64,000 bases of DNA, taken from the NCBI GenBank assembly GCA_026418675.1, contig JAOAAX010000006.1, positions 1 to 64,000 on the forward strand, given 5' to 3'. Numbering within the stretch: position 1 is the first letter of the stretch; each line of letters begins with the position of its first letter. The position numbers and the translations under genes were made by a program. The stretch is from Chthoniobacterales bacterium (GTDB lineage Bacteria; Verrucomicrobiota; Verrucomicrobiia; Chthoniobacterales; DYNR01). Under the pieces are notes generated by a model that did no database searches, was not told the origin of the DNA, and saw only the letters and a program-made list of their open reading frames with translations. This document shows, piece by piece, positions 11,106-27,355 of the stretch.

Positions 11106-12833
11106 CTAATTCTTAGGCGAGCTGCTCTTGATAGGAATTTCAACAAATAGCGGTTTTTTCTTGCCACAAAAGTCCCTGATTTTTTCTTCAATATGTCTCA
11201 CATCATTACTTTGAAAATAATCGATTCCATACATTCTACAAATATGTCGGAAATTTAACCCGTGGGGAGTTTGTAGATAATCTACACAAACATCAACAGG
11301 AACATCTATTTTTAATTTCCAAAAAATCCCTCCTCCGTCGTTGTTTGCAACAACAAGAACAACAGGCATCCCTCGAAGTAAAAAAAGGGAATTCAAATCA
11401 TGCAAAACTGCCAAATCTCCAACCAATCCCAAAACCGCCTTCCGACTTTCACTCGCAAATCCAGCGATGTGGGATATGTTACCGTCAATTCCACTTGCAC
11501 CACGCTGACCAAATACCTTAAACAGCTTCCCTTCTCCTCCAGCATTCGTTTCGAAATCCCGAATAGACCTCGAATTCCCTAAAAAAAGAGTTACCCCCAA
11601 TTCTTGGCTAATCCGAAAAACAAATCTCGCAACCTGCTGTTCCGTCAAAATTTTTGTAGTATTCGCAAGTCTTCTTTTTTCCTCTTCACTCTTCCGATCC
11701 CAAAAAAGCCACTTCTCTAACCATTCGTTATTTCTTTTTATTTTCTTTTTCCGAAGAATCTCCAATATTTGCGCACAAAAAAATACTTCCTCCTCCGTTA
11801 AAACTTTAGGTTTTTGCAGGTAAGGATCAAACTGTGTGGGAAATCTATAAACACGTAACACTCTGTCCCCCTTTAATTGGGAAAAAAAAGACTCCATCAC
11901 TTTGGTAACAATCCTACCACCAAGCCATACCAGATATTCTGGATTCGGAAATCCGTTTACTTCACTCAGCCAGTCACTTGCATAAAAAATTAAGCATCCA
12001 CGCTTCCTCCAACTTTTCATCCCACTCAAAGCAGAAACAACAACCGGCCACCCTAAAACTTCCCCAAGCGTGCAAATTATTTGTAATCTTCTACTTTGGT
12101 AAAAAGGAGCTAACTCTCCAACAAGAATAATTCCCCTCTCATATTGAGATAAATTTGTCGCTATTTCTTTAATCTCCCTTTTGCTTATCCTTCCTTCACA
12201 AACGCAACAATTCTTTGCCAGGCTTTTTGTCCTAATTTCACAGAGTTTTCTCTCCCCTCTTTCTCTTATTGTTAATTTTAAATTCCCGCGTTTTATTAGT
12301 GGTTCACGAAAGGGAACGTTTATATGAACAGGCCCCGGCGGATTCCCTTGGGCAACATGAACAATTTCCGTAATAGTTTCCTCAAGAAAGCATAGTTCCT
12401 CATCGTTCGGACAAGATAAATCCACGCTCTTCTTGGTAAATTTTCCAAAAATTCCAGGCTGCCATATAGTTTGATTCGCACCTTTTTCCCTCAACTCAGG
12501 GGGTCTATCCGCTGTAATTACCACCAAGGGAAGAAAACTATAAAAGGCTTCTACAACCGCTGGAGCTAAGTTCGCTACAGCAGACCCCGAAGTCGTTAAA
12601 CACACAACTGGTTTGCCTGTTGCATGAGCCTTACCCAAGGCATAAAACGCCATCCCACGTTCATCGTAATGGATTTTAACATCAACTTTCTTTCTTTTCT
12701 CCCAAATTGAAATTGCCAAAGGTATCGAACGAGCTCCAGGACTTAAACAAAAACTCCGAACACCACTTAATATCAGTGACTCAATAATTTTTTCTCCCCA
12801 AACTAAATTCCACTCCGAACCTTCAGATTCCAT
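11106..12833 (-). CDS. menD: SEPHCHC synthase, menaquinone biosynthesis
   Basis: MenD is a thiamine diphosphate enzyme joining isochorismate and 2-oxoglutarate to give SEPHCHC, the first committed step of menaquinone synthesis. Seen: the N-terminal SLILSGVRSFCLSPGARSIP, the catalytic-side DERGMAFYALG, LTTSGSAVANL, ITADRPPELRE with QTIWQPGIFG, and C-terminal cofactor-binding LGLVGDLAVLHDLNSLFLL and ANNDGGGIF. The ATG at 12833 gives 575 residues, a normal length; an upstream TTG at 12842 is also in frame. It overlaps the end of menF by 11 bp, so the two are translationally coupled. With menF and menG it forms a minus-strand cluster; menA, B, C and E are not here. Confidence 0.95.
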   Translation of the reverse strand: MESEGSEWNLVWGEKIIESLILSGVRSFCLSPGARSIPLAISIWEKRKKVDVKIHYDERGMAFYALGKAHATGKPVVCLTTSGSAVANLAPAVVEAFYSFLPLVVITADRPPELREKGANQTIWQPGIFGKFTKKSVDLSCPNDEELCFLEETITEIVHVAQGNPPGPVHINVPFREPLIKRGNLKLTIRERGERKLCEIRTKSLAKNCCVCEGRISKREIKEIATNLSQYERGIILVGELAPFYQSRRLQIICTLGEVLGWPVVVSALSGMKSWRKRGCLIFYASDWLSEVNGFPNPEYLVWLGGRIVTKVMESFFSQLKGDRVLRVYRFPTQFDPYLQKPKVLTEEEVFFCAQILEILRKKKIKRNNEWLEKWLFWDRKSEEEKRRLANTTKILTEQQVARFVFRISQELGVTLFLGNSRSIRDFETNAGGEGKLFKVFGQRGASGIDGNISHIAGFASESRKAVLGLVGDLAVLHDLNSLFLLRGMPVVLVVANNDGGGIFWKLKIDVPVDVCVDYLQTPHGLNFRHICRMYGIDYFQSNDVRHIEEKIRDFCGKKKPLFVEIPIKSSSPKN

Positions 12834-14181
12834 CAAGATCAAAACTTACAAAAATATCTCGAACTTTTACATCCATTTCCTCCCATTCGGCACCGGGTTG
12901 TGAACCTAATACTATTCCCGCTCCTGTAAATACATAGGCCTTGCCACTCCGTAGCAAAAAGGAGCGAATCCCTACACAAAACTCAGCTTCATCATGACCC
13001 ACATAACCTAACGCTCCTCCATACCATCCTCTCCTAACTTTTTCTTTCCTTTCAATGTAAACTTTAGCTACCTCAACCGGATATCCACAGGTCGCAGGTG
13101 TAGGGTGCAAAACCCTCAATATTTCCTCATCATCACATTCTGCCTTCAAATCAACAGCAATCCGAGTTTTAAGGTGCCTCAGGTTTTCAAAATCTATCAC
13201 TTCTCTCCCAGATAAAATTGGAACAGAACTTCCTATTCTTAAAAGTGAGTTCACGATAAATCGAACAACGTAATCATGCTCTTTCGCTTCTTTTTCAGAA
13301 ATCGTTAGCTCTTCAAAGAATTGATGATCAAGATTAAATTCGCATGCTCGAGGCTTAGTTCCAGCCACTGCTTCAGTAATTAATTTTCTCCCTTGCCTCC
13401 GATATAGCAACTCAGGACTACAACCCATGAAAATCCCCGAATTTGAGTCAAATTCAAACAGAAATCCAAATCGTTCCATTCGCCTCCTCCCTATCATTCT
13501 TTTGAGCAAATCAACACCTTCCACTATTTGATCAAATGTCACTTCGGAAGTTCGAAACAATACAACTTTTTCCAAACCATTCCTTGATATTTCATTAATA
13601 GCTCGATCAACTTCCGTTTCCCAAAGCTTAAAATCAGGAATTTCTATGATCTTCTTATTAGAAAATCTTTTCGTTTCTTTTCTTAATTTAAAAAAAGAAT
13701 GAACTTTTTCTGTAATAAAATTCTTTAAAATATGTTCTAATAAATCAACATTTGGAATATTATCCCTATGACAATTAACGGCAAGTTTGTAAGTCCCTCC
13801 CACCAAACAGAACTCCAAAAAAGGCAAAAAGAAAAACTCTCCGGGAAATCCTTCCCAAATTCCGCTTCCAGGCTTTTCATCGAAACTTCTTCCACCGTAA
13901 ATTCTTGAACCGCAAGGCAATTCCTTTTTAAGTTCTAGTAATTCTCTTAACTCACCTTGTGCTACCGTCCCCAGAGCTAAACTCCACTCTCTCTCTCTTG
14001 AACGAGGCAAAAAGAAAAACTTGGGCCAAAGTTTAAGACCATATATCTGAGTTAAATCAAAAAAATCTCCAGGCAGAAAAATCTCCGCTCTTCGCCACTC
14101 TAAATCACCACTAACTAAATCCCGATGGAGCAACTCAGCAGCTTCTAACGAACCAAACTCCCCCTTTGTAAAAAAAAACAT
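12823..14181 (-). CDS. menF: isochorismate synthase
   Basis: Chorismate-binding enzyme converting chorismate to isochorismate for MenD. Seen in the C-terminal half: VDRAINEISRNGLEKVVLFR, FLFEFDSNSGIFMGCSPELL, TEAVAGTKPR, the isochorismate-synthase signature LHPTPATCGYP, and GWYGGALGYVG. From the ATG at 14181 the protein has 452 residues, typical for the family. The frame stays open upstream to an ATG at 14274, but that start would overlap menG by 73 bp and add residues unlike the family, so I chose 14181. The N-terminal half is diverged and rich in Phe, Arg and Gly, in line with the G-rich minus strand. Its role in menaquinone rather than siderophore synthesis follows from the menD/menG neighbours. 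Confidence 0.93.
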   Translation of the reverse strand: MFFFTKGEFGSLEAAELLHRDLVSGDLEWRRAEIFLPGDFFDLTQIYGLKLWPKFFFLPRSREREWSLALGTVAQGELRELLELKKELPCGSRIYGGRSFDEKPGSGIWEGFPGEFFFLPFLEFCLVGGTYKLAVNCHRDNIPNVDLLEHILKNFITEKVHSFFKLRKETKRFSNKKIIEIPDFKLWETEVDRAINEISRNGLEKVVLFRTSEVTFDQIVEGVDLLKRMIGRRRMERFGFLFEFDSNSGIFMGCSPELLYRRQGRKLITEAVAGTKPRACEFNLDHQFFEELTISEKEAKEHDYVVRFIVNSLLRIGSSVPILSGREVIDFENLRHLKTRIAVDLKAECDDEEILRVLHPTPATCGYPVEVAKVYIERKEKVRRGWYGGALGYVGHDEAEFCVGIRSFLLRSGKAYVFTGAGIVLGSQPGAEWEEMDVKVRDIFVSFDLDGI

Positions 14182-14201
14182 AGAATCTAAATTCTTTTTT
14201 T

Positions 14202-14918
14202 TTACTTTTCTGCTAAATATAAAGTTACAATTCCCATGGTTAACAGCCGAAATCTTGGTTGAACAAAACCACATCCTCGAAGCATCTCCAGAAACTCATC
14301 TCCCTGGGGAAAACTTTCAACACTTTGATTCAAATACAAATAAGCAGAATAATCTCCACTAAACCTTCCACCAATCCATGGCAAAACCCTCCGAAAATAA
14401 AGCAAATACAATTCCCGAACAAAAGTGAAAGGTGGCAGAGAAAACTCAAGGATGCGAATACTCCCACCATTTTTCAGCACACGCCTCATCTCACAAAGAG
14501 ATTTATAGGGATCCATCGTATTACGAATACCGAAAGTTATACTGACCACGTCAAACTCATTGTCTTCAAAAGGCAACTCTTCGGCCCAGCCAAGAACCCA
14601 CTCAGGAGTAACCAAAGTGTTACGCGGAACAGTTTTTCTGCAAGCTATTGCTAACATTTTTTCTGCTGGATCAACGCCCACTGCTCTCTCAACACAAGCT
14701 CCAAGATACTTCAGATTCTCCAAAAGCTGATCTCCTGTTCCTGCAGCTACATCAAGAATTTTAAGACCTGGCCTTGCATAAATTGACTCTGCAAGGCTTT
14801 TTCTCCAACAACGATCAATCCCAAAAGATAAAATTCCATTCAAAAAATCATAAGTCTTAGAAATCCGATTAAACATTAACCATGAACCCCCGCCCATAAA
14901 TTCATTGGTAAACTTCAT
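14202..14918 (-). CDS. menG: demethylmenaquinone methyltransferase (UbiE/MenG family)
   Basis: SAM-dependent methyltransferase that does the last step of menaquinone synthesis. Seen: FNRISKTYDFLNGILSFGID near the N-terminus, the SAM-binding motif ILDVAAGTGD, VGVDPAEKML, and the family signature VVSITFGIRN followed by REMRRVLKNGG-like CEMRRVLKNGG and RILEFSLP. The ATG at 14918 gives 238 residues; an in-frame GTG two codons upstream is possible. The gene leads the menG-menF-menD cluster. The family also methylates ubiquinone precursors, but menF and menD alongside argue for menaquinone. The promoter should lie in the 99 bp divergent gap to the thioesterase gene. Confidence 0.94.
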   Translation of the reverse strand: MKFTNEFMGGGSWLMFNRISKTYDFLNGILSFGIDRCWRKSLAESIYARPGLKILDVAAGTGDQLLENLKYLGACVERAVGVDPAEKMLAIACRKTVPRNTLVTPEWVLGWAEELPFEDNEFDVVSITFGIRNTMDPYKSLCEMRRVLKNGGSIRILEFSLPPFTFVRELYLLYFRRVLPWIGGRFSGDYSAYLYLNQSVESFPQGDEFLEMLRGCGFVQPRFRLLTMGIVTLYLAEK

Positions 14919-15017
14919 CTCCACTTACTAACACCAACACAAATTATCTACGTCTTTTACCTGCAAGTCGCCGCAGAACTTGTTAAAATCAACTCCATTC
15001 TTAATTTTAAGTTCGAT

Positions 15018-15525: not shown

Positions 15526-17592
15526 ATGGGTTGTTTGCCTGTCACTATTCCAGTCAAAAATTTAAAATGGATCCCAAATAGCAAAAAATCCTATCTTGCC
15601 CGCATCGGAATAAATACACTTAAAGACCTATTACTCCATTTTCCTCGCCGTTACGAAGACCGAACACAATTCTTTTCCGCACAACCACTGGAATCAGATT
15701 CCCCTGTCTGCTTATTCGGCATTGTAGTCAAAACCAGTTTCCAACGCTACGGCCACAATCCACCTTGTTTTGAAGCCGAAATCGAACCCCAACATGCAAA
15801 TGTCTTCTCTCATCGCTGGACCTGCCGTTGGTTTAATTCCAGATACCTTGCAAAAATTATCTCTGTTAATGACAAAATTGTCATTTATGGAAAAATTCGC
15901 ATCCGCCGCCAACGCATTTACCTCGACCACCCCGAATTCGAAATTATTGAAGAACTTCAAGATTCCATTCACTTTGGACGAATAACTCCAATTTATCCAT
16001 GCGGTGATGGTTTAAACTCCCGCCTTCTTCGTGAGTGGATTTTTGTTGCACTTCAAGAGTTCGATCCAAAAACAATTCCAGACATCCTTCCTCCCAAGGA
16101 AATCGTGATCCCAAGGGAAGAAGCCCTCCAAAATATCCACTTTCCACCAAATTTTGAAACCCTGGAAAAAGCTCGAAAACAATTCGTTTTGGAGGAGTTT
16201 TTCAAACTCCAATGTCTCCTTGCTCGCCGCCGCCAACGTGCCTTGTCCTCCCATTCAACTCCAAAAATTGTTTCTAGAAAACTTCTCAACAAATTCCTCT
16301 CTCAGTTGCCTTTTTCTTTAACAACCAGCCAACAAGAAGTGTTGGAAGAATTGCTGGCCGAAATTGCCGAACCTCGACCAATGCGAAGATTGCTTCAAGG
16401 TGATGTCGGTTCCGGCAAAACAGTTATTGCAGCGGCTTGTGCTATTGCTACGGTCGAAGCTGGCTGGCAAGTAGCCTTAATGGCACCTACTCAAATTCTC
16501 GCAAACCAGCATTTCAAAAATTTTCATCGCTGGCTATCCCCTCTCGGAATTTCAGTTTCTCTAGTTACCTCCGATCAGCGCACTCTCCCAGGCGAACTTC
16601 CTCTTTTCTCCTCCCCATTCGGCGGAGACGTCATCATCGGGACTCACGCCTTGCTTTATGAATCTACCCCTCTCCCCAAACTCGGACTCGTAATCATTGA
16701 TGAACAACACAAATTTGGTGTAGAGCAACGCGCACGCCTCCTTAATCGCGGAATTTGTCCAGACTTGCTCATCATGACTGCCACTCCCATCCCCCGAACA
16801 CTCACTCAAACCATCCACGGCGATTTGGATGTCAGTTTTATCCGCGAACGTCCAGCCCTTCGAGGAACCATCAAAACTCTCGTCCGCCCTTCTTCTCACC
16901 TCCCACAAATCACATCTTTTCTCCGTAACGAACTCTCTCAAGGCCGACAAGCATATATCGTTTATCCCCTCATTGAAGAATCAGAAAAAATCCAAGCCGC
17001 AGCAGCTACAGAGAGATATGAATTTTGGAAACAAGCCTTAGCACCTTACACCGTCGAACTCCTTCATGGCAGAATGCCCGCTGACGCAAAAGAAAAAACC
17101 ATGCAGCTATTCCACCAAGGTGAAATTTCTGTCCTTGTCAGCACTACGGTCGTTGAAGTCGGTCTCGATGTTCCAAACGCAACTGTAATGGTTATTGAAA
17201 ATGCAGAACGTTTTGGCCTCGCCCAACTCCATCAACTCCGCGGTAGAGTCGGCCGTGGTCAACTCCCCTCCACATGTTTTCTCATACAATCTGAAAATAC
17301 AAAAATCGCAACCGAAAGACTTTCCACCTTAGAAAAAACCTCCGACGGCTTTGAAATCGCTGAAGCCGATTGGAGATTCCGAGGCCCAGGAGACCTATTA
17401 GGGACTGCCCAAAGCGGCCTCCCAGAACTACGAATTGGTGATCTAATTCGCGATTCCCATCTTATGGAACATGCCAGAAAAACCGCACTTGAATTGTTCT
17501 CCCAAGACCCCTCTCTCGCCAATTATCCTATTTTACTCCAAACTCTCGTCCAGTTCGAAGAATCAATTTCACAGAAATTTGCTGATACTTAG
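15526..17592 (+). CDS. recG: ATP-dependent DNA helicase RecG
   Basis: Superfamily 2 helicase (688 residues) that remodels stalled replication forks and branched DNA. N-terminal wedge/OB region with LLLHFPRRYEDRT at about 35-47; helicase core with Walker A GDVGSGKT near residue 291, the LMAPTQILANQH motif, DEQH near 391, TATPIPRTL, VYPLIEES, LHGRMPADAKE, STTVVEVGLDVPNA, QLHQLRGRVGR and the RecG-specific DWRFRGPGDLLGTAQSG. Length is normal. The stop codon overlaps by 4 bp the stop of the convergent cytochrome gene, so there is no space for a separate terminator. The gene follows the thioesterase after 46 bp. Confidence 0.97.
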   Translation: MGCLPVTIPVKNLKWIPNSKKSYLARIGINTLKDLLLHFPRRYEDRTQFFSAQPLESDSPVCLFGIVVKTSFQRYGHNPPCFEAEIEPQHANVFSHRWTCRWFNSRYLAKIISVNDKIVIYGKIRIRRQRIYLDHPEFEIIEELQDSIHFGRITPIYPCGDGLNSRLLREWIFVALQEFDPKTIPDILPPKEIVIPREEALQNIHFPPNFETLEKARKQFVLEEFFKLQCLLARRRQRALSSHSTPKIVSRKLLNKFLSQLPFSLTTSQQEVLEELLAEIAEPRPMRRLLQGDVGSGKTVIAAACAIATVEAGWQVALMAPTQILANQHFKNFHRWLSPLGISVSLVTSDQRTLPGELPLFSSPFGGDVIIGTHALLYESTPLPKLGLVIIDEQHKFGVEQRARLLNRGICPDLLIMTATPIPRTLTQTIHGDLDVSFIRERPALRGTIKTLVRPSSHLPQITSFLRNELSQGRQAYIVYPLIEESEKIQAAAATERYEFWKQALAPYTVELLHGRMPADAKEKTMQLFHQGEISVLVSTTVVEVGLDVPNATVMVIENAERFGLAQLHQLRGRVGRGQLPSTCFLIQSENTKIATERLSTLEKTSDGFEIAEADWRFRGPGDLLGTAQSGLPELRIGDLIRDSHLMEHARKTALELFSQDPSLANYPILLQTLVQFEESISQKFADT

Positions 17593-19031
17593 TTCCCTTT
17601 GACAATCCCCTGCAACTCCCTTTCGCCACTTGTCACTTCCATTACACCTTTGCCTTTTGAAGGAGAAGTTAAGCTCACAAGGTATTTTTTCAAAGCATCG
17701 ATTTCCTCATCAGTCCCAACAAGGGGTGGCATAAACTTCGAATAGGGAGACCCCTCACCAGTCTTCCGCATCATCGCCAAAATGTTACCAATCGCAGTTT
17801 CATCCCGATCGTAGAGAAAATCACGCATCGAGCGATAACCATCAACTGTGTGGCACGAAACACATTGCCCTAAAAACATCTGCCTCCCAAGCTCCATTAC
17901 CAACGAACCTCGTAAATTCCCACTTTCAAACATTCCCTCATTTATTTTCCATGGTGAGTGGACCATATAACCTTCCTCATTACACTTCCCAACCGCTGAT
18001 TTTAACGTCCCATTCGAATACATGTAATCAAAAATGATGTAAGGCTTCCTTAACATTTCCCTCGCTCCTTCTGTTGCGGCAGTAGCAAGGAATGCTAAAA
18101 GTAAGACCGCTATCGCATGACCAAACTCAAAATCTCTAGGATAAAGAAAGGCAAGAAAATATACAACTCCAACTATCGTCGCTGTAGTCAATATGGCAAT
18201 TAACGTCAGCCTCGTAACCTGTGTAAATGCTCCAACCCCAATCGTCGAAATCCCTAAACTCAGCAGTTCCCTTTGACTCTCGGGAACCATACTCAAATAC
18301 CAAATAAAGCATATTGGCATAAAAACAAACGCCGGCAAAAGCCACAGCGAAGCCCATCTTATCAACCCTCGCTTCACTTCTCCTTCCTTTTCACTATCCA
18401 AGCGGCTGAAAAACACCAAAGACATGACCCCACCCATCGAAATGCAAACCAAAGTTCTCAGCGCCAGGCTCGGCCAGTATGTCGGATTAAAAAAAGCTTC
18501 AAAAAAATGCTCTGCCTCCTTCCCAGTCCCCGCAACGCTTAGCCAAGCCGAGCTAGGCGTTAACTTAAAGGTGAGTATCCCATTTATTATTACCAAAGTT
18601 AAAAAAGATGATACCGCATAGAGCAAACCAAGCCTTACATGCACTCCAGAAGGCAACCTCCCCCAGGTATAATAGTAAGCCGCTGCTAAACTCAACTCCA
18701 CCAAAAATATCACCCACTCCGTTGCCCACCCAAAAACAAAATTATGGATCAAGGTGCTAGTTCCAGCTGGATTTGCCAAACCAATCGAAAACCAAATACC
18801 AACTCCCGTCATTGCCCCTACAACTCCCGTCAAAACTAAGAAAAACTTTGAATACCCTGGCAAACGTTTCAGCCAATCCTCACGCCCCTCTCGTAGAGCT
18901 TTCTTTTCCGTTAAATAGAGAAAAAGGCCCCCTCCTATTGCAAAATGCGATACTAGAACATGAACAATCGCTACTATACCAATGACAAGCCCCGAACCAA
19001 TATAAGGAACATTCCAAACTGGATAGTTCAT
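17589..19031 (-). CDS. CydA-like membrane protein with C-terminal c-type cytochrome domain
   Basis: A 480-residue protein with about nine membrane segments resembling the N-terminal part of cytochrome bd subunit I: His24 and His29 in the first helix (IVHVLVSHFAIGGG), GAMTGVGIWF at 72-81, a glutamate pair Glu105 and Glu112, and NGILTF at 150-155. The bd Q-loop is not evident and there is no CydB gene. After the last helix a soluble domain carries a heme c site CVSCH (Cys390, Cys393, His394) and a probable Met434 ligand in KFMPPLVGT. It lies 13 bp downstream of cytochrome b and likely belongs to the same complex, taking the place of cytochrome c1 or f as electron exit; this is inference. It ends 4 bp inside recG. 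Confidence 0.85.
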   Translation of the reverse strand: MNYPVWNVPYIGSGLVIGIVAIVHVLVSHFAIGGGLFLYLTEKKALREGREDWLKRLPGYSKFFLVLTGVVGAMTGVGIWFSIGLANPAGTSTLIHNFVFGWATEWVIFLVELSLAAAYYYTWGRLPSGVHVRLGLLYAVSSFLTLVIINGILTFKLTPSSAWLSVAGTGKEAEHFFEAFFNPTYWPSLALRTLVCISMGGVMSLVFFSRLDSEKEGEVKRGLIRWASLWLLPAFVFMPICFIWYLSMVPESQRELLSLGISTIGVGAFTQVTRLTLIAILTTATIVGVVYFLAFLYPRDFEFGHAIAVLLLAFLATAATEGAREMLRKPYIIFDYMYSNGTLKSAVGKCNEEGYMVHSPWKINEGMFESGNLRGSLVMELGRQMFLGQCVSCHTVDGYRSMRDFLYDRDETAIGNILAMMRKTGEGSPYSKFMPPLVGTDEEIDALKKYLVSLTSPSKGKGVMEVTSGERELQGIVKGN

Positions 19032-19044
19032 AATCCGCTATTTA

Positions 19045-20160
19045 TCATTTAGTTGATGGCAAAGCCCAATACCCCCAAATTGTGGTTATTACTAGAACAC
19101 CCAAAACAAACAAACCAAAATACATCGTTGCCCTCGCTCGAAGTCCCCCCTCCGTCTTTGGATCGAAAAAAGGGATCAAAAACCACAGAACCAACCCAAG
19201 CGTAAATACTGCTAACCCTAAAAACTCACCCACCGCTCCAGGAAACAACTGGCCGAATATTTTTAACATCTGAAAGGAACTCATAAAATACCATTCCGGG
19301 TGGATATCCATTGGTGCAGGCTTCAAAGGATCCGCCGGTGCTCCCAACTTCCATGGAAATAGAGCAGCCAGTAATGCTAGAACATTCAACGTTATAAGCC
19401 AAATCGCTAAATCCCGCATCGCAAAATTCGGGAAAAACGGTATTGTTCTTACATCTTTAGCCTCCCCATCAGGCACACTCATCCCATGCTTTTGAACTAA
19501 AATTAAGTGAAATATCAAAATCGGAATAAACAACGCAGGCAAAATCACTACATGTAACGCAAAAAACCTTGAAACGGTAAAACCAGTTATCTCAGGCCCA
19601 CCCCGAATAATATCCGCAACCCATGGCCCCAAAACCGGTATCACAGCTGGAATACTCAAACCAACTTTCGTGGCAAAATATGCTAACTCATCCATCGGCA
19701 ATAAATACCCGCTAAACCCAAAAACCATTGCCAAAATCAATAAAACTAATCCACTCCACCATGTGAATTCTCTCGGCTTCCGGTAGGCCCGCATAAAAAA
19801 AGCCGAAAACATGTGCACAAATGCTGCTCCAATCATTAAATTCGCTGCCCACGAATGCGTAGATCGTATTAGCCACCCAAATTTTATATCATAAGTAATC
19901 TGCCGAACAGACTCATAAGCTTCATCTCCCGGTCTATAATAAACCAAGAGCAACACCCCTGTAACACACATCACCAAAAACAAAAATAGTGTTATCCCAC
20001 CCCAATAATACCAAAACGAATGCCGATGCTCAGGCACCTCCTTCTTCTTTGCCAACTCAATTACTTCACTCAATCCAAGCCGCTCATCTACCCATTGGTA
20101 GATCCTCGCCACAGCCCCACTCTTCCTTTCTTTAACTTCTTCTGACAATAATTTGCCCAT
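19045..20160 (-). CDS. cytochrome b (b6/subunit IV fused) of a Rieske/cytochrome b complex
   Basis: Membrane quinol-oxidizing cytochrome b of 371 residues. Heme ligands are two His pairs: HSWAANLMIGAAFVH and HVVILPALFIPILIFH. The second pair is 14 residues apart, the spacing of cytochrome b6. The quinol-site motif PEWY lies in the C-terminal half, which corresponds to subunit IV, so b6 and IV are fused. A roughly 40-residue charged N-terminal extension precedes the first helix. I took the ATG at 20160, which overlaps the Rieske gene by 29 bp; an earlier in-frame start at 20223 would overlap by 92 bp. The protein should oxidize menaquinol, given the men genes nearby. Confidence 0.95.
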   Translation of the reverse strand: MGKLLSEEVKERKSGAVARIYQWVDERLGLSEVIELAKKKEVPEHRHSFWYYWGGITLFLFLVMCVTGVLLLVYYRPGDEAYESVRQITYDIKFGWLIRSTHSWAANLMIGAAFVHMFSAFFMRAYRKPREFTWWSGLVLLILAMVFGFSGYLLPMDELAYFATKVGLSIPAVIPVLGPWVADIIRGGPEITGFTVSRFFALHVVILPALFIPILIFHLILVQKHGMSVPDGEAKDVRTIPFFPNFAMRDLAIWLITLNVLALLAALFPWKLGAPADPLKPAPMDIHPEWYFMSSFQMLKIFGQLFPGAVGEFLGLAVFTLGLVLWFLIPFFDPKTEGGLRARATMYFGLFVLGVLVITTIWGYWALPSTK

Positions 20161-20638
20161 CGCGAATCTCAACCTCGTAGCGTTCAAGAGGATGCGGTGG
20201 TGGCCCCGCCACATTTTTCCCACTCACTGCATCGTAAACTCCGGAATGACACGGACAAAAGACCCTCTTCTGATCCGGTTCATAAGTAACTGTGCACCCT
20301 AAATGCGTGCATATTGCACTCATCGCCGTGTATGTCCCATCCTCATGCCGAATCAGAAGCGCAGGACGTGTCCCAAATTTAAACATCAGTGCAGAATTCT
20401 GCGGCAAATCCATCGCCTCTTTCGGTAACGTAACCTCTTTAACAGCTCCAGCAGCCATCGCCTCCTCGACTGGCGAAGCAAGATAGCGATAAACCGGATA
20501 CCCTATCGCTGCAGCATAACAAGCACCTACTACACCAACCACTGCCGTGATAAATCCCCGCCGATCCATCAAATCCCCACTCTCAGGTCCTTTCTCATCA
20601 CCTCCAATCCTCCCCATCGTTTCACTTTGATTAGACAT
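20132..20638 (-). CDS. Rieske [2Fe-2S] protein
   Basis: High-potential iron-sulfur subunit of the cytochrome b complex, 168 residues from the ATG at 20638. A Tat-like motif MDRRGF and one hydrophobic helix (about 27-52) anchor it to the membrane. The cluster motifs are CTHLGC and CPCHSG, with GPPPHPL close behind, as in typical Rieske proteins; both disulfide cysteines are present. Its start overlaps the end of the 372-residue membrane protein by 8 bp, and its end overlaps cytochrome b, so the operon is tightly coupled. An in-frame TTG three codons earlier is an alternative start. Confidence 0.96.
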   Translation of the reverse strand: MSNQSETMGRIGGDEKGPESGDLMDRRGFITAVVGVVGACYAAAIGYPVYRYLASPVEEAMAAGAVKEVTLPKEAMDLPQNSALMFKFGTRPALLIRHEDGTYTAMSAICTHLGCTVTYEPDQKRVFCPCHSGVYDAVSGKNVAGPPPHPLERYEVEIRDGQIIVRRS

Positions 20639-21749
20639 ATTTCTCAATACTAGGCCGCGCAGAACGTAAGATAAAATAGAGCCAAACCAATAAACCTACC
20701 CCTACCAAAAGCGAAACAAAGAAAAGACCAATCACATACCAGTTCGGATTCACAACCCTTTGCCACACATCAAATCCTTTAAGCATCAAAGTCACATCCC
20801 GAACCATATCGCGGAGAATGACGTAGCCGCCCGCCCCCATCACCGACGCGGCACCAGCTAAATATGCCTTCCCATACCCCCAACTTGCGGGTGTCAAGCT
20901 AATCCATATCGAAGCAACTACCCCCATAAGTAATCCTAAAGCCCACACAACTACCGCATAAGGAACAATTCCTACACCCCATACCCCATTCCGAACTTCC
21001 ACCGGTTGCTGTTGCCAAGCCCATAGTCCAATGAAAAGTCCCAAAATCAGGAAAACCCCACCAACCCGTCCACCCCATACCCGCAAAAATCGCTTCACCC
21101 CTTCCTCCAAGCTCCCCTTCGCGCTATACAAACTCGTTAGCAAGCCCCCATACCCAACAGACAAAACCATCATATAAAGATACCTCGGCAAACGCGTAGC
21201 ATCCGCCGGGGGAAAATATACACCAAAATCAGATCGAGCATACATCCCAGCCCAATCCTCAGGCCGTAACATCAACGCCATTGCTGTCGAATATACCTTC
21301 CCAACATACAAAATAAACAATAAAGCCAAAACACCCCATCCCCAATACCCCCTCCCCGCCGAAGCTAAATAACTACACCGGTAAATCGCAAAATACGCTC
21401 CCATTATCGCAAAAATTACACTCATCCACCACAATCCAATCAAAATCGTCGCCGTATAGATCACCTGCCCATACAAAACTTGCACAAACAACAACGGCGG
21501 AACCCCAAAGTTTATTACATACGTCATCACTATCGGCAACCTACTCATTACTACTCCGCTCGCCCCAACTGCCTCCTTATCCCCAAACCTCCGGCCAATA
21601 AAATTCCATACCGCACTCAGCACCAGACCTCCTATAAGCAAATATAGAAATATAAAATGAATTGTTAATGTCAAATCACCCAGGAACTTCATCAGCCAAA
21701 CAGGCGCTGGAAGTGGAATCGGCTCAGCCGCAGGAATTGCAGCGTTCAT
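20631..21749 (-). CDS. polytopic membrane protein, first gene of the Rieske/cytochrome b operon
   Basis: A 372-residue protein with about nine hydrophobic helices. I do not recognise a named family with certainty. The first helix contains LTIHFIFLYLLIGG, and later helices GVPPLLFVQVLYG and WWMSVIFAIMGAYFAIYRC. These resemble, in pattern, the first helices of the CydA-like protein at the other end of the operon (His in helix 1 followed by IGGG or LIGG), so the two may be distant paralogues. There is no c-heme motif. Coupling with the Rieske gene (8 bp overlap) makes it a probable subunit of the complex; conserved His residues could bind heme b. Function is inferred only from context. Confidence 0.8.
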   Translation of the reverse strand: MNAAIPAAEPIPLPAPVWLMKFLGDLTLTIHFIFLYLLIGGLVLSAVWNFIGRRFGDKEAVGASGVVMSRLPIVMTYVINFGVPPLLFVQVLYGQVIYTATILIGLWWMSVIFAIMGAYFAIYRCSYLASAGRGYWGWGVLALLFILYVGKVYSTAMALMLRPEDWAGMYARSDFGVYFPPADATRLPRYLYMMVLSVGYGGLLTSLYSAKGSLEEGVKRFLRVWGGRVGGVFLILGLFIGLWAWQQQPVEVRNGVWGVGIVPYAVVVWALGLLMGVVASIWISLTPASWGYGKAYLAGAASVMGAGGYVILRDMVRDVTLMLKGFDVWQRVVNPNWYVIGLFFVSLLVGVGLLVWLYFILRSARPSIEKYV

Positions 21750-21997: not shown

Positions 21998-22516
21998 CTA
22001 ACTTTCTCCCCCTTCTAGAGCCTGAAGTCGCCGTTCCAATCTTCTTACCTGCTCCTCAACACTCATAAACCTGCGATGGTATTCCAATAAATTTCGCTCT
22101 AAATCTCGAACTCGATTGTGAAGAGATTCTATTGTGACATCTTCATCCGTTTTTTTGGCAGAGCGTGCTTCGGCGGGGAAAAAGTGCCAATCTTCTAAGG
22201 GACGAACGTCTCCTGTCACACAATTAATAACGAGAGTTGAGGAACTGATTTCCCCGAGCTTGTAAAACTCCATAACCGCTTGCTCTGTGCTTGGCCCGTA
22301 ATATACGTCATCCGTTACCTGCACAAGATAGTCCATGTTCAACTCTGGAATCATAGGTGCCTTATTCCACACTACCTGATCCTCAGAAACCATGTCGTGC
22401 GGCGAAATTTGAGCAGAACGCGCCCATTCCTGAAGCTTCGAAAACGGCACCGGCCCAAAAATCGAACCATCATCGTGTTTCCGTAGATACCAATTTTCAG
22501 AGTAAATGTTTGCCAT
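21998..22516 (-). CDS. GYF_2-like domain protein with C-terminal coiled coil
   Basis: A 172-residue cytoplasmic protein without signal or membrane segment. Residues about 8-58 (starting WYLRKHDDGSIFGPVPFSKL) match the GYF_2/DUF4339 layout: an aromatic start, GP, a hydrophobic helix and a late Trp. Residues about 63-113 look like a second diverged copy (YLVQVTDDVYYGP ... RPLEDW). The last 45 residues (about 125-170) form a charged heptad-like coiled coil rich in Glu and Arg. Such domains usually mediate protein contacts. It stands alone between the cytochrome operon and the nrd promoter; its partner is unknown. Confidence 0.75.
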   Translation of the reverse strand: MANIYSENWYLRKHDDGSIFGPVPFSKLQEWARSAQISPHDMVSEDQVVWNKAPMIPELNMDYLVQVTDDVYYGPSTEQAVMEFYKLGEISSSTLVINCVTGDVRPLEDWHFFPAEARSAKKTDEDVTIESLHNRVRDLERNLLEYHRRFMSVEEQVRRLERRLQALEGGES

Positions 22517-22947: not shown

Positions 22948-24039
22948 ATGGCTAGCAACACAATAACCATCCAACTTGGAAACAAAACCTTCTTTCTCGA
23001 TCGCGCAAAAGCAGAAGAAGCTTTTGAAGCCAAGCGTGTCATAAATGGCCGACAAACCATGTTCTTCAACATCCTCCCCCTCAAATACCAGTGGGCCTAC
23101 GACCTTTACAAAAAAATGAAAGCCAATCACTGGGAACCAGAGGACATCCCCATGCAGCGCGATTGTGAACAATGGCGCGATTCCTCAATAACCGACATCG
23201 AACGCTGGATCATCAAAATGGGAATCGGCTATTTCTCCGCCGCCGAAGGAATCGTCGGCGACAATATCCTCCACGTCATCCGCGAGCTGGTCACTGCTCC
23301 AGAGCTCAAGCTCATCCTCGGCCGCCATGCCCACGAAGAAAATATCCACGCCGATTCCCTCGTTTACATGATCAGCTCCCTCGGCATCAATCCTCATGAA
23401 TGCGAAGCCATGTTTGACGACATCCCAACCATAAAGAAAAAAACAGACTTCGTCGTCTCAAATAGCCGTGCTCTCCGCCGCGACCTCGATATGTCCCTCA
23501 CCGAAAATAAGCAGGCCCTCGCAAAAAACATTTTCCTCTTTGGCCAATGTATGGAAGGCACCCAATTCTACGGCCTCTTTGGCATGGTCCTCGCACTCTA
23601 TCGCCAGAATAAGTTTCGCGGAATCGGCGAAATGTTCCGCTATACCCTTCGCGACGAATCAAATCACATCGAACTGCTTCGAAATCTCCTCATGGACCTC
23701 GTCCAGGAAAACCCAGATGTCTGGACCCCCGAATTTCGCCAGGAACTCCGGCAAACTATGGCCGAAGCTGTCCGCCTTGAGAAGGAATTTATCCAAGATT
23801 GCCTCCCAATCGCAGCCATTGGCCTCACCAAAGAAGAGTTCCTCACCTATATTGATTATATCGGCGACCGTCGCCTCGAAGGATGCGGCCTCGAACCCCT
23901 CAATCCTCCCATCGTCAACCCCCTCCCTTGGCTCGCTGAAATGATGGACATCCGGAAAGAGCAGAATTTCTTCGAAGGCCGCGTAACGGAATACCAAAAA
24001 GCATCTGCACTCACCGCCGTAAGCGACGACGAACTCTAA
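22948..24039 (+). CDS. nrdB: ribonucleotide reductase beta subunit, class Ic-like (Leu in place of radical Tyr)
   Basis: R2 subunit (363 residues) of an aerobic ribonucleotide reductase; it stores the oxidant that starts catalysis in NrdA. Metal ligands are visible: Glu100 (AAEG), Glu131 and His134 (ENIH), Glu203 (CMEG), Glu237 and His240 (RDESNH). In E. coli the stable radical Tyr122 lies seven residues after the Glu of ExxH; here that position is Leu138 (ENIHADSL), so no tyrosyl radical can form there. Replacement of this Tyr and Glu as first ligand are features of class Ic enzymes, which use a Mn/Fe center in Chlamydia. The C-terminal EYQKAS keeps the Tyr of the radical transfer path. nrdA follows after 28 bp. 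Confidence 0.96.
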   Translation: MASNTITIQLGNKTFFLDRAKAEEAFEAKRVINGRQTMFFNILPLKYQWAYDLYKKMKANHWEPEDIPMQRDCEQWRDSSITDIERWIIKMGIGYFSAAEGIVGDNILHVIRELVTAPELKLILGRHAHEENIHADSLVYMISSLGINPHECEAMFDDIPTIKKKTDFVVSNSRALRRDLDMSLTENKQALAKNIFLFGQCMEGTQFYGLFGMVLALYRQNKFRGIGEMFRYTLRDESNHIELLRNLLMDLVQENPDVWTPEFRQELRQTMAEAVRLEKEFIQDCLPIAAIGLTKEEFLTYIDYIGDRRLEGCGLEPLNPPIVNPLPWLAEMMDIRKEQNFFEGRVTEYQKASALTAVSDDEL

Positions 24040-24067
24040 CCATATTAAACACCTAAATCCCGCACCT

Positions 24068-27000
24068 ATGAAACTCCCATTCTCTTTCATCGAAGAAGAC
24101 CTTTCTATCAAGAATCTCATATTCTCCTCCCCCCCAAACTATCCTCGCTTCTCTTGGAGCAACTGCCCAGAAGCCTGCCCGCTTCTTCACCCCTCGGAAA
24201 AAACCATCCTTATCCAAACCCACAACTCCCACTACACTTACAACCCAGCCGAAGTCGCAGAAAAAATCGGTCAAGCCCTCACAGACCTCCTCCTCTCTCG
24301 CAACCGAACAGATATCTTCACCGAAGCTAACCGCCTCTACGTCGCAAAACTTACTAATTCCGTCACCTCTTCCCTCCTCCAAAAGGCCAATTCCCAAAAT
24401 CCCACCTCCATTCCAGAAAGCGAACTCATCGCAACCATTGAAAAAACCCTCCTCGAAAACGACGCTCACGACATCGCTCGCAGTTTCCTCGCCCGCCGAT
24501 CCTACCTCCCTAATCCAGCTCAAACCCAAAACGGCACTCACCCCCCTTCTCCCCGCCTCATCCGTCGCAATGGCACCGTCGTCCCTTGGAACCCATCCAA
24601 AATCGAAATCGCTTGCCGCAAAGCCTTCCTCTCCATCCGCGCCAACCCAGAACCCGCCGTTGAAATCGCCAACGCTGTCACCGAACGCGCCCGTAACTCT
24701 GGACTCTCCTTTATCCACATCGAAGACGTCCAAGACTGGGTCCAAGAAGAACTCATGCGCCAAGGACACTACAAAGTCGCAGAAAGCTACATCCTCTACC
24801 GTGCCCACCGCGCCCTCCTCCGCGAACAACAAGCAAAAGAACGCCAGCAACTCCTCTCCCAACAACAACACACCCTCCTTGTCGTAAAAAACCCAGACGG
24901 TTCTACACACTTCTGGGACGGCTCTGAACTCAAAAAAAGAATCCAATTCGCTTCCATCGGCCTCGACCTCTGCCTCTCCCAAGAAGAAATCGAACGCGAA
25001 CTCCGCCGCTCCCTCACTCAGGAAATTTCCGCCGAAGCACTCCGCCAAACCATCCTCCTCAATGCAAAAACCCTCATCGAGCGCGACGCCGACTTCGCTC
25101 GCTTCGCTGGCCGCATCCTCCTCACCTACATCTACGAAGAAGTCCTCCCTTGGAACATCTCTTCCGACGGCATCGAACGCCTTAAAGAAGCCCACCGCCT
25201 CGCCTTCAAAAACTACATCCGCCACGGAATCCAAATCGAACGCCTCACCCCAAGCCTCCTCGAATTCAACCTCGACCGCCTGGCAGACGCACTCGATCCA
25301 TCCGCCGACCTCGATTTCGATTACCTCGGCATCCAAACCCTCTACGACCGCTACCTCATCGTAGACAAAACGAACCCCAAAAAACCTCGTCGCATCGAAA
25401 CCCCACAATTCTTCTGGATGCGCGTCGCTATGGGCCTTTTCCTCAAAGAACCTAATAACCGGGAAGATTGGACCATCCGCCTTTACAACCTCTATAAATC
25501 CCGCCGCTTCTGCTCTTCAACCCCAACCCTCTTCAATTCCGGAACACCTCACTCCCAACTCTCCTCCTGCTACCTCTACAAAGTGGACGACTCTATCGAG
25601 TCCATCATGATTCGCGGCATCGCAGAAAACGCCTACCTCTCCAAATGGGCAGGCGGCCTCGGCGGCTCCTGGACTGCTGTCCGCGGCACAGGCTCCTACA
25701 TCAAAGGCACAAACGGCGAATCCCAAGGCGTCATCCCCTTCCTCAAACTCCACAACGACCAACTCGTAGCTGTCAACCAAGGCGGAAAACGCCGCGGCTC
25801 CGGTTGCGCTTACCTCGAAACCTGGCACAACGACATCGAGGACTTCCTCGAACTCCGCAGAAACGTCGGCGACGAACGCCGCCGCACACACGACCTCAAT
25901 ACTGCCAACTGGATCCCAGACCTCTTCATGAAACGCATGGAAGCACGCCAGCATTGGACCCTCTTCCGCTCCAACGAAGTCCCCGACCTCCACGACCTCT
26001 ACGGCCGCAAATTTGAAGAGCGTTACCTCTATTATGAACAGCTCGCAGCTCAGGGAAAAATATGGTCCCGCCAAATCCCAGCAATCGAGCTTTGGAAAAA
26101 AATGCTCCGAATGTTGTTCGAAACCGGCCACCCGTGGATCACCTTCAAAGACCCCTGCAACATCCGCTCCCCACAAGACCATTGCGGCGTCATCCACTCC
26201 TCCAACCTTTGCACAGAAATCACCCTCAACACCTCCTCCGAAGAAACAGCCGTCTGCAACCTCGGCTCCATCGTCCTCGATACCCACCTCAATCCCGACG
26301 GTTCCTTAAACCACGACCTCCTCCGTGATACCATCTACACCGCCGTCCGCGCCCTCGATAACGTCATAGACATCAACTTCTACCCAACAGAAGCAGCCCG
26401 CATTTCCAACCTCCGCCACCGCCCCATTGGCCTCGGCATAATGGGGCTCCAAAACGCTCTCTTCAAGCGCGGACTCTCCTTCGCTTCCGAAGAAGCCGTC
26501 GAATTCAACGACGAATTCATGGAAGTCATCGCTTATTACGCTTACTCCGCTTCCAGCGACCTTGCTGCCGAACGCGGCACCTACTCCTCCTACAAAGGCT
26601 CAAAGTGGGACCGCGGCCTCTTACCTCAAGACACTCTCGACCTCCTCGAAGCCGAACGCGGCCTCCCCATCCAAGTCCCTCGAGGGGGAAAACTCGATTG
26701 GTCACCCGTTCGCGAAAAAATCCGTAAGCAGGGCATGCGCAACTCCAACGTCCTCGCTATCGCCCCAACAGCCACCATCTCCAACATCATGGGCACCTCC
26801 CCTTGCATCGAACCAAATTACAAAAACCTCTACGTCAAATCCAACCTCTCCGGTGAATTCATCGTCCTCAACGCAGAACTCGTCCGGGACCTCAAAAAAG
26901 CAGGCCTCTGGAACCAAATCATGGTGGACCAACTCAAATACTTCGACGGCGAACTCGACCAAATCCCAGAAATTCCAGAGCCCATTAAACAAAAACACCA

Positions 27001-27355
27001 GACCGTCTTTTCTATCCCGTGGCAATACCTTATCGAAGCAGCTGCACGCAGACAAAAATGGATTGACCAATCCCAGTCCCTCAACCTCTTCCTCGCAAAC
27101 CCAGACCTCAAAACCCTCAGCCATATGTATCGCACCGCATGGCACAAAGGCCTCAAAACCACTTACTACCTCCGGACCCTCGGCGCCACAGCCATCGAAA
27201 AAGCTACCCTCAAAGTCGAAAAAGAAAAGCGTAGCTTAATCGCTCAAACCACACCTAGCCAATCCCTCCCAAACGAAGACCCCTCCCAAGAACAAACCAT
27301 CGCTTGCTCCCTCCGTTCCCTCCAAACTGGCGAACCCTGCGAAGCTTGCCAATAA
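24068..27355 (+). CDS. nrdA: ribonucleotide reductase alpha subunit with multiple ATP-cone domains
   Basis: Catalytic R1 subunit, 1095 residues, reducing ribonucleoside diphosphates. The core shows the redox pair Cys501 (SSCYLY) and Cys730 (VCNLGS), the thiyl Cys715 with Asn713 and Glu717 (NLCTE), and a C-terminal shuttle CEAC (1091-1094). The N-terminal 360 residues appear to hold ATP-cone modules: a canonical one at about 163-253 (RRNGTVVPWNPSKI ... YILYRAHRAL), a degenerate one before it (about 45-145) and another after it (about 268-355). ATP cones set overall activity by ATP or dATP. The extra-long N-terminus is reminiscent of chlamydial NrdA. It should form an operon with nrdB under the NrdR-like site. 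Several long antisense frames over this gene are composition artefacts. Confidence 0.97.
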   Translation: MKLPFSFIEEDLSIKNLIFSSPPNYPRFSWSNCPEACPLLHPSEKTILIQTHNSHYTYNPAEVAEKIGQALTDLLLSRNRTDIFTEANRLYVAKLTNSVTSSLLQKANSQNPTSIPESELIATIEKTLLENDAHDIARSFLARRSYLPNPAQTQNGTHPPSPRLIRRNGTVVPWNPSKIEIACRKAFLSIRANPEPAVEIANAVTERARNSGLSFIHIEDVQDWVQEELMRQGHYKVAESYILYRAHRALLREQQAKERQQLLSQQQHTLLVVKNPDGSTHFWDGSELKKRIQFASIGLDLCLSQEEIERELRRSLTQEISAEALRQTILLNAKTLIERDADFARFAGRILLTYIYEEVLPWNISSDGIERLKEAHRLAFKNYIRHGIQIERLTPSLLEFNLDRLADALDPSADLDFDYLGIQTLYDRYLIVDKTNPKKPRRIETPQFFWMRVAMGLFLKEPNNREDWTIRLYNLYKSRRFCSSTPTLFNSGTPHSQLSSCYLYKVDDSIESIMIRGIAENAYLSKWAGGLGGSWTAVRGTGSYIKGTNGESQGVIPFLKLHNDQLVAVNQGGKRRGSGCAYLETWHNDIEDFLELRRNVGDERRRTHDLNTANWIPDLFMKRMEARQHWTLFRSNEVPDLHDLYGRKFEERYLYYEQLAAQGKIWSRQIPAIELWKKMLRMLFETGHPWITFKDPCNIRSPQDHCGVIHSSNLCTEITLNTSSEETAVCNLGSIVLDTHLNPDGSLNHDLLRDTIYTAVRALDNVIDINFYPTEAARISNLRHRPIGLGIMGLQNALFKRGLSFASEEAVEFNDEFMEVIAYYAYSASSDLAAERGTYSSYKGSKWDRGLLPQDTLDLLEAERGLPIQVPRGGKLDWSPVREKIRKQGMRNSNVLAIAPTATISNIMGTSPCIEPNYKNLYVKSNLSGEFIVLNAELVRDLKKAGLWNQIMVDQLKYFDGELDQIPEIPEPIKQKHQTVFSIPWQYLIEAAARRQKWIDQSQSLNLFLANPDLKTLSHMYRTAWHKGLKTTYYLRTLGATAIEKATLKVEKEKRSLIAQTTPSQSLPNEDPSQEQTIACSLRSLQTGEPCEACQ

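Follow-up and report, generated by a model that had tools for sequence, protein, structure and literature searches.

Background

Canonical cytochrome bd oxidases take electrons directly from quinol, without a Q-cycle. The OR-C and OR-N families of the cytochrome bd superfamily were reportedly set out by Murali, Gennis and Hemp in 2021, and OR-C members are said to carry heme c. In the parts of the literature drawn on here the superfamily is divided into qOR, OR-C and OR-N groups, with OR-N being probably cytochrome c-using and built of CydAA' pairs (PMC10839748, PMC13189123), and cytochrome c-fed bd-like enzymes, proposed from genomes, are called uncharacterised (PMC10839748). The locus analyzed here lies within a stretch of 64,000 nt (the window) from a Chthoniobacterales bacterium of the Verrucomicrobiota (assembly GCA_026418675.1, contig JAOAAX010000006.1, positions 1 to 64,000). 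It is an operon of four genes, encoding P1, a Rieske protein, a cytochrome b and CydA-c, a protein like subunit I of bd oxidases (CydA) with a C-terminal cytochrome c domain.

To our knowledge, known III-IV supercomplexes use heme-copper oxidases. According to the passages cited, complex III of the mycobacterial bcc-aa3 system is joined to a terminal oxidase without soluble cytochrome c (PMC4505504), and III-IV supercomplexes with a membrane-anchored cytochrome c have been described (PMC8361435). The oxidase of bcc-aa3 is of the heme-copper type, whereas that of the window belongs to the bd superfamily. Cited passages place complex III genes in Nitrospira moscoviensis, or alternative complex III (ACIII) genes in Nitrospirales with OR-N5, near bd-like oxidases, for which a III-IV supercomplex has been suggested in Nitrospira (PMC6606698, PMC12342949); ACIII is there described as structurally unrelated to the bc1 complex (PMC12342949). 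The window resembles the Nitrospira loci in having a quinol:cytochrome c reductase gene set close to CydAA'-like oxidase genes. However, the N. moscoviensis cluster has several c-type cytochromes, while the window operon has no separate one and its c domain is fused to CydA.

CydA-c shares the CydA fold and the residues of the O2 site with canonical CydAB oxidases. It differs from them in lacking the Q-loop and the b558 histidine, in coming from a genome without a CydB match and in the added c domain, and for these reasons a donor at the level of cytochrome c is expected rather than quinol. A CydA-type core without a quinol site and a likely cytochrome c donor are features in common with OR-C and OR-N. 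CydA-c agrees with OR-C as that family is described (CydA core, fused cytochrome c, no quinol site). What distinguishes the window from OR-C and OR-N is that Rieske and cytochrome b genes are nested between two CydA-type genes.

Organization of the operon and proposed function

The genes are found on the minus strand in the order P1-Rieske-cytochrome b-CydA-c, as follows:

20631 to 21749, minus strand: P1, open reading frame (ORF) of 372 aa; apparent CydA-fold partner subunit (CydA'-like), 9 long helices in its model
20132 to 20647, minus strand: Rieske [2Fe-2S] protein, ORF of 171 aa (Pfam PF00355, 1.5e-14)
19045 to 20223, minus strand: cytochrome b with b6 and subunit IV parts fused, 392 aa as listed (PF00033, PF00032)
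17589 to 19031, minus strand: CydA-c, bd-oxidase subunit I-like with C-terminal cytochrome c, ORF of 480 aa (Pfam Cyt_bd_oxida_I)

Adjacent genes either overlap or are spaced by 13 bp. A first-pass annotation, made from the sequence by itself, had reported four overlapping or closely spaced minus-strand genes at these positions, and ORF analysis and Pfam searches confirm them. Chance does not account for the four-gene order: of the 80 loci that a genome search ranked as most similar, 53 keep it whole, across phyla, and contig ends cut 4 more.

The operon probably, though far from certainly, encodes a quinol:oxygen oxidoreductase of two joined modules, a bc module and a CydAA'-type oxidase. What sequence comparison and structure models provide is the set of genes, their folds and residue pattern, the failure to find c1, f and CydB, and the wide co-inheritance. 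Under this proposal cytochrome b and the Rieske protein would run a Q-cycle of the bc1/b6f kind to oxidise quinol. Electrons would then go from the Rieske head to the tethered cytochrome c domain of CydA-c, which would lie on the periplasmic side and act in the role of c1 or f, and heme c would pass them to a two-heme site (b595 and d equivalents) inside CydA-c. O2 would be the acceptor, reduced at that site, with cytoplasmic protons entering via a conserved glutamate path, and P1 would be a CydA'-like partner in the seat of CydB. The heme sites would accordingly be occupied, the four proteins physically assembled, and topology and direction of electron flow as given.

CydA-c

The Pfam model Cyt_bd_oxida_I (PF01654) matches CydA-c residues 17-234 (3.4e-15), and a profile comparison with CydA (HHalign) gives E 4e-12 over residues 18-205. 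A PDB sequence search reached bd subunit I only marginally (5doq_A, E 0.11). The structure models of CydA-c and P1 were made with AlphaFold2 (AF2) solely from window and related-locus proteins. That of CydA-c has a predicted local distance difference test score (pLDDT) of 90.2 and is closest to 9fka_A (VIA; Z 31.8, root-mean-square deviation (rmsd) 3.1, 333 aligned), a chain taken as subunit I from its letter and length, as were all PDB entries except 5doq_A, for which that identity is named outright. ACIII subunits also resemble the CydA-c and P1 models, with Z 14.5-18.2, well under the values for subunit I of bd oxidases, and the remaining bd chains likewise scored lower than subunit I. Eight membrane-length helices were counted in the CydA-c model, from which a Q-loop-sized insertion appears to be absent. 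The features of the protein are located as follows:

17658 to 17912, minus strand: cytochrome c domain of CydA-c, residues 374-458 (VIA match 1ls9, cytochrome c6, Z 7.1, 76 aligned; PF00034, 5e-4)
17850 to 17864, minus strand: heme c motif CVSCH (Cys390, Cys393, His394), invariant in 58/58 homologues
18057 to 18059, minus strand: Glu325, equivalent to E. coli CydA Glu445 (weak HHalign E 4e-4, motif REMLRKP/AEYGRQP), invariant in 58/58
18960 to 18962, minus strand: His24, equivalent to E. coli CydA His19 (HHalign), invariant in 58/58

The C-terminal Cytochrom_C match (PF00034) is barely above the curated Pfam cut-off. Met434, likewise invariant in 58/58, is the likely distal heme c ligand. We take His19 of E. 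coli CydA to be the heme d ligand and Glu445 the heme b595 ligand; the E. coli residue numbers were checked for residue identity against the E. coli CydA sequence. CydA-c Glu105 and Glu112 align to E99 and E107 of E. coli CydA, and Arg328 to R448, the register of Glu325 and Arg328 coming from the weak alignment with its clear motif. All five active-site residues (His24, Glu105, Glu112, Glu325, Arg328) are invariant in the 58 homologues and in 16/16 of a broader set, and the key residues are kept alike in 37 copies with and 21 copies without Rieske/cytochrome b. Arg192 stands at the position of H186, the b558 histidine, in 58/58 and again in 16/16 of the broader set, and residues 157 to 336, the stretch in which M393 is expected, contain no conserved Met column (≥60%). 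The review cited puts b558 closest to the quinol site, ligated by His and Met, and assigns a conserved His and a conserved Glu to hemes d and b595 (PMC8951039). Judged by its ligands, the electron-entry heme b558 of CydA-c looks lost, and the residue pattern is, as far as alignment can assign it, that of a two-heme O2 site from which quinol entry has been lost and to which cytochrome c entry has been added. With the b558 ligands gone and a c domain gained, CydA-c would need a cytochrome c-level donor, and the Rieske protein can be one.

These residues also bear on the acceptor. Reduction of another substrate in place of O2 at the di-heme site, such as nitric oxide, seems very improbable, as does reverse operation of the set as a cytochrome c:quinone reductase, even though a Nitrospina bd-like protein has been considered, in the portion of the source cited, for an ACIII-like role in reverse electron transport (PMC3578206). 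The conserved residues match the O2-reducing site of bd oxidases. Class I ribonucleotide reductases are O2-dependent, and genes of that type adjoin the operon at 22948-27355, consistent with an aerobic host.

P1

P1 has no Pfam or NCBIfam match over cut-off, and a PDB sequence search with it gave nothing meaningful. Its AF2 model has pLDDT 94.3 and aligns to 7ose_A with Z 28.0 (VIA; rmsd 4.0, 347 aligned). In Foldseek the best chain was 9r2g_A (E 6.4e-5), 5doq_A (subunit I) scored 4.0e-4, and the best chain not of subunit I type 0.017. Profile comparison of P1 with CydA-c gave E 9e-11, and a second comparison 5.8e-11; the clean P1 and CydA-c models have 16 ORFs in common. Against canonical CydA and CydB the P1 profile scores 0.0028 and 0.0023, weak and near-equal values, and sequence does not separate the two. 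His31 lies in the first helix at the H19 position and is invariant in 59/59. The identification of P1 as CydB was rejected on balance, given the strong kinship with CydA-c and the best fold matches to subunit I chains; with the invariant histidine added, fold and kinship lead us to read P1 as CydA'. From its model P1 looks like a CydA paralogue, the second subunit of a CydAA'-type pair and part of the oxidase system. The first-pass annotation had listed the gene merely as encoding a polytopic protein; the gene is present, but P1 is not incidental, being by its model a second CydA-fold subunit.

Early iterated models of P1 and CydA-c cross-matched in 161/161 ORFs, which was model drift and was not used as evidence of kinship. 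In the distant branch loci L039, L044, L045, L047, L048, L049 and L050 the P1 partner has a CxxCH motif of its own.

Rieske protein, cytochrome b and the quinone

Two motifs were located in the bc module:

20246 to 20311, minus strand: Rieske cluster-binding motif CTHLGC...CPCH (ORF residues 113-134)
19288 to 19299, minus strand: Qo-site motif PEWY of cytochrome b, PEWY in 56/56 homologues

The Rieske protein matches the NCBIfam b6f FeS subunit at 1.6e-19, below the cut-off of that model, and its N-terminus is a membrane anchor whose start reads as twin-arginine-like. N- and C-terminal halves of cytochrome b are in a single chain (PF00033, 2e-44; PF00032, 4.5e-10), of which residues 274-378 match the subunit IV model TIGR01156 below cut-off. 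Comparison with its relative in L002/L022 favours the ATG at 20160 as the true start of cytochrome b. Four heme histidines are present (His 123/137 and 224/239), and we take their spacing to be b6-type. The Rieske cluster motif, the fused b6-type cytochrome b, the four heme histidines and the Qo motif are likenesses to bc1/b6f complexes; the departure from strict bc1/b6f is that no separate c1 or f was found and the c domain belongs to an oxidase subunit.

Menaquinone had been proposed as the quinone from men genes nearby, and menD, menF (isochorismate synthase) and menG/ubiE are indeed consecutive at 11106-14924 on the minus strand. Menaquinone is plausible on that ground. The PEWY Qo motif, however, goes with higher-potential quinones, and it is present in 56/56 homologues although the window holds men genes, so that menaquinone is one candidate quinone.

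Genome setting

The genome from which the window comes spans 2.34 Mb in 131 contigs and is 94% complete. Pfam searches of it gave no match to cytochrome c1 (PF02167), cytochrome f (PF01333) or CydB (PF02322), no second cytochrome b (PF00033) and no other PF01654 protein. The earlier observation that c1, f and CydB are missing thus extends beyond the window to the whole genome at this completeness. A c1 or f hidden elsewhere, which would have spoken against the CydA-like protein as their replacement, was searched for in these contigs and not found.

The genome does encode a cbb3 oxidase, made of a CcoNO fusion with CxxCH and a CcoP-like gene, and the CydA-c/P1 pair was for this reason rejected as the sole O2 reductase of the organism. 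With two class-I cytochrome c models, CydA-c and the CcoP-like gene alone gave a match; the models passed over the CxxCH in the CcoNO fusion and so do not detect all cytochromes c. Should the bc module be functional, its natural acceptor is either the c domain of CydA-c or the c subunits of cbb3. The second option leads to an electron-exit model in the sense of the first-pass annotation, in which CydA-c with P1 would be a membrane-anchored substitute for c1 whose heme c reduces the cbb3 c subunits, the CydA-like core reducing no O2. That c1 and f were not found, that the cbb3 has c domains of its own and that the class-I models (blind to the CcoO domain) gave no further gene are all in keeping with it. 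The O2-site and proton-path residues would then be free to drift, yet they are invariant in 37/37 copies with Rieske/cytochrome b, and this possible model must explain why they do not. Further, the genomes G001, G048 and G067 have the operon but no heme-copper oxidase match. We consider the electron-exit model unlikely.

A survey for heme-copper oxidases covered 31 of 37 genomes with a CydA-c match (all except G043, G051, G169, G196, G269 and G285) and gave matches in 25. The six without a match are G001, G041, G048, G067, G142 and G149, four of which are ≥90% complete; CydB was not found in G041, G048 and G067, the three of the six tested for it. The operon is present in G001 (95% complete), G048 (85%) and G067 (75%), with P1 cut by a contig end in G001 and G067. 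CydB was found in 1/13 genomes with a CydA-c match (weak, has a stop) versus 22/44 without (Fisher p 0.009), a count of 57 genomes that was assembled by hand, is uncorrected for kinship and is only suggestive.

Distribution, gene order and history

At least 594 candidate stretches were recovered from 84,980 species genomes, of which the best 80 (L059-L138) were kept, a set biased to close relatives. To be counted in one locus, family matches had to share a strand and lie within 5.5 kb, and P1 and CydA-c labels in L059-L138 came from the early drifted models, assigned by best score. The order P1-Rieske-cytochrome b-CydA-c was found in 53 of these loci, CydA-c-P1 in 18 and Rieske-cytochrome b-CydA-c-P1 in 2. 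Loci at contig starts account for six more (cytochrome b-CydA-c, 2; Rieske-cytochrome b-CydA-c, 2; CydA-c alone, 2), and one locus, L117, has a P1-Rieske fusion followed by CydA-c. Phyla in the record titles include Verrucomicrobia, Acidobacteria, Armatimonadetes, Hydrogenedentota, Planctomycetota, Omnitrophota, Sumerlaeia, Lentisphaerae and others, but most of the 80 records are metagenome bins, for which taxon names can be wrong.

Within the class of the window, 37/286 genomes had a CydA-c match. From these 35 loci were taken and 33 belonged to the family (L051 and L052, below the score limit, were dropped), with no loci from G043, G051, G108, G196 and G269 nor from the close copy of G035. 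Eighteen are CydA-c-P1, 10 have the four-gene order, 2 are Rieske-cytochrome b-CydA-c-P1, 1 is a P1/Rieske fusion (the same locus as L117) and 2 are cut by contig ends. The two locus sets overlap, L022, L028 and L032 having near-copies in the other set. P1 is beside CydA-c in every uncut locus, 74/74 in the best-80 set and 31/31 in the class set; frames are broken in L120, and P1 is split in L090 and L098.

The tree contains 109 rows and was built with a quick method and the Shimodaira-Hasegawa-like approximate likelihood ratio test (SH-aLRT). Warnings were raised for long branches, including L036 and L043, and the near-identical L022, L028, L032, L063 and L099 were omitted. In 36 of the 109 rows the CydA-c/P1 pair stands alone, neither Rieske nor cytochrome b being detected within 5.5 kb. 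Loci of the four-gene form make up almost a single clade, with the stand-alone pairs around it. Presence of the bc module requires 4 changes on the tree, one of which is L117, labelled as without the module. In L036 and L037 more distant Rieske and cytochrome b genes adjoin the pair (L036 is on a long branch and its placement is unsure). From the 4 changes and these distant bc genes, the association of the pair with Rieske/cytochrome b probably arose more than once.

The stand-alone pairs show, together with the CydA fold of P1 and its constant place beside CydA-c, that the pair is not one odd subunit replacing c1. An independent oxidase was the outcome that the first-pass annotation had named as contradicting its model, and sequence goes part of the way there: the pair is alone in 36/109 rows, and the O2-site residues are kept in 58/58 and 16/16. 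What stands of the claim that the CydA-like protein takes the place of c1 or f is that the Rieske protein has an obvious acceptor in its heme c and that the genes are strongly linked; what does not is the lone stand-in, CydA-c being half of a two-subunit bd-like oxidase. Taken by itself, the CydA-c/P1 pair is very likely an oxidase, which in this operon is combined with a bc module.

The stand-alone pairs would also fit an operon for two enzymes that are regulated together without assembling, one a bc complex that serves cbb3 and the other a bd-like oxidase fed by cytochrome c, as would the genomes G020, G027, G035 and G060, which hold a close and a more distant CydA-c copy. We regard this as quite improbable. 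Rieske and cytochrome b are nested between the oxidase genes in an order kept across several phyla, the bc part would have no c subunit of its own, and the fusion in L117 argues for contact. At L117 7282-8991 (L032 9123-10832, other strand) P1 and Rieske form a single 569-residue ORF with CydA-c directly after, which suggests that the two can be neighbours in one complex, although the fusion is known from one genome. Cytochrome b was not found in the L117 locus, and a heme-copper oxidase search of its genome (G149, 93% complete) gave no match. The four proteins diverge in a correlated manner (r 0.73-0.87; 0/999 permutations as high) in 48 of the 53 four-gene loci, the 5 with short ORFs being left out.

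In the four genomes with two CydA-c copies the distant one is a stand-alone pair with two CxxCH in CydA-c, and the close copy is a four-gene operon in G020, G027 and G060. CydA-c is duplicated in tandem before P1, downstream of CxxCH ORFs, in L125 (9001-12722) and L130 (9001-12729). The acidobacterial loci L089, L094, L105 and L108 have additional ORFs, none with CxxCH, that separate Rieske from cytochrome b; in L089 and L108 such ORFs also separate cytochrome b from CydA-c. A separate cytochrome c gene within the operon was considered and rejected, as the ORFs listed in gaps >120 bp between member genes carry no CxxCH; gaps were measured on the longest possible ORFs, and true gaps may be larger. 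In L073 the four-gene operon is followed on its own strand, 1602 bases past the start of CydA-c, by a 216-aa ORF with five CxxCH motifs.

Around the window operon, recG (15526-17592) is convergent with the downstream end, tail to tail, with a 4-base overlap with the CydA-c end. Directly upstream on the same strand (21998-22516) is a gene for a GYF_2-domain protein with a weak coiled-coil signal. The ribonucleotide reductase genes, beta and alpha, are on the plus strand.

Discussion

Several points weigh against the proposal of a two-module quinol:oxygen oxidoreductase. The alignment that places Glu325 is weak taken alone (E 4e-4), and correlated divergence of the four proteins would be yielded by shared ancestry alone. 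The P1-Rieske fusion occurs in one genome only, at a locus without cytochrome b. In 15/80 loci an unlabelled ORF of ≥80 aa with CxxCH, a candidate cytochrome, lies ≤7 kb from CydA-c, and separate cytochromes c may serve some relatives. With cbb3 in the genome of the window and a heme-copper oxidase in 25/31 genomes, O2 need not be reduced here. Finally, no activity, spectrum or structure for the four-gene set was found in the literature searched.

Set beside the described systems, the CydA-c/P1 pair resembles a bd-like oxygen reductase of CydAA' type that is fed by cytochrome c, with OR-C as its nearest likeness and with Rieske/cytochrome b nested in its operon. We put forward more tentatively, as a prospect slightly short of even, that the four subunits form one obligate machine, a c1-less Rieske/cytochrome b combined with a CydAA' reductase, which would be the bd-superfamily counterpart of bcc-aa3 in Verrucomicrobia, Acidobacteria, Armatimonadetes and several candidate phyla; L117, with Rieske fused to the CydA'-like subunit and cytochrome b gone from the locus, would then be a Rieske-fed oxidase that has no bc core next to it. 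No description of the arrangement or the family in these phyla was found in the portions of the literature searched, which does not show it to be undescribed.

If the proposal is true, bd-type respiration would gain in energy yield from the joining of a Q-cycle complex to an oxygen reductase of the bd type. Such a complex could also explain how some lineages respire without c1 or f and, in certain genomes, with no heme-copper oxidase that can be detected. The question of how cytochrome c-fed bd-like enzymes get their electrons would become testable.

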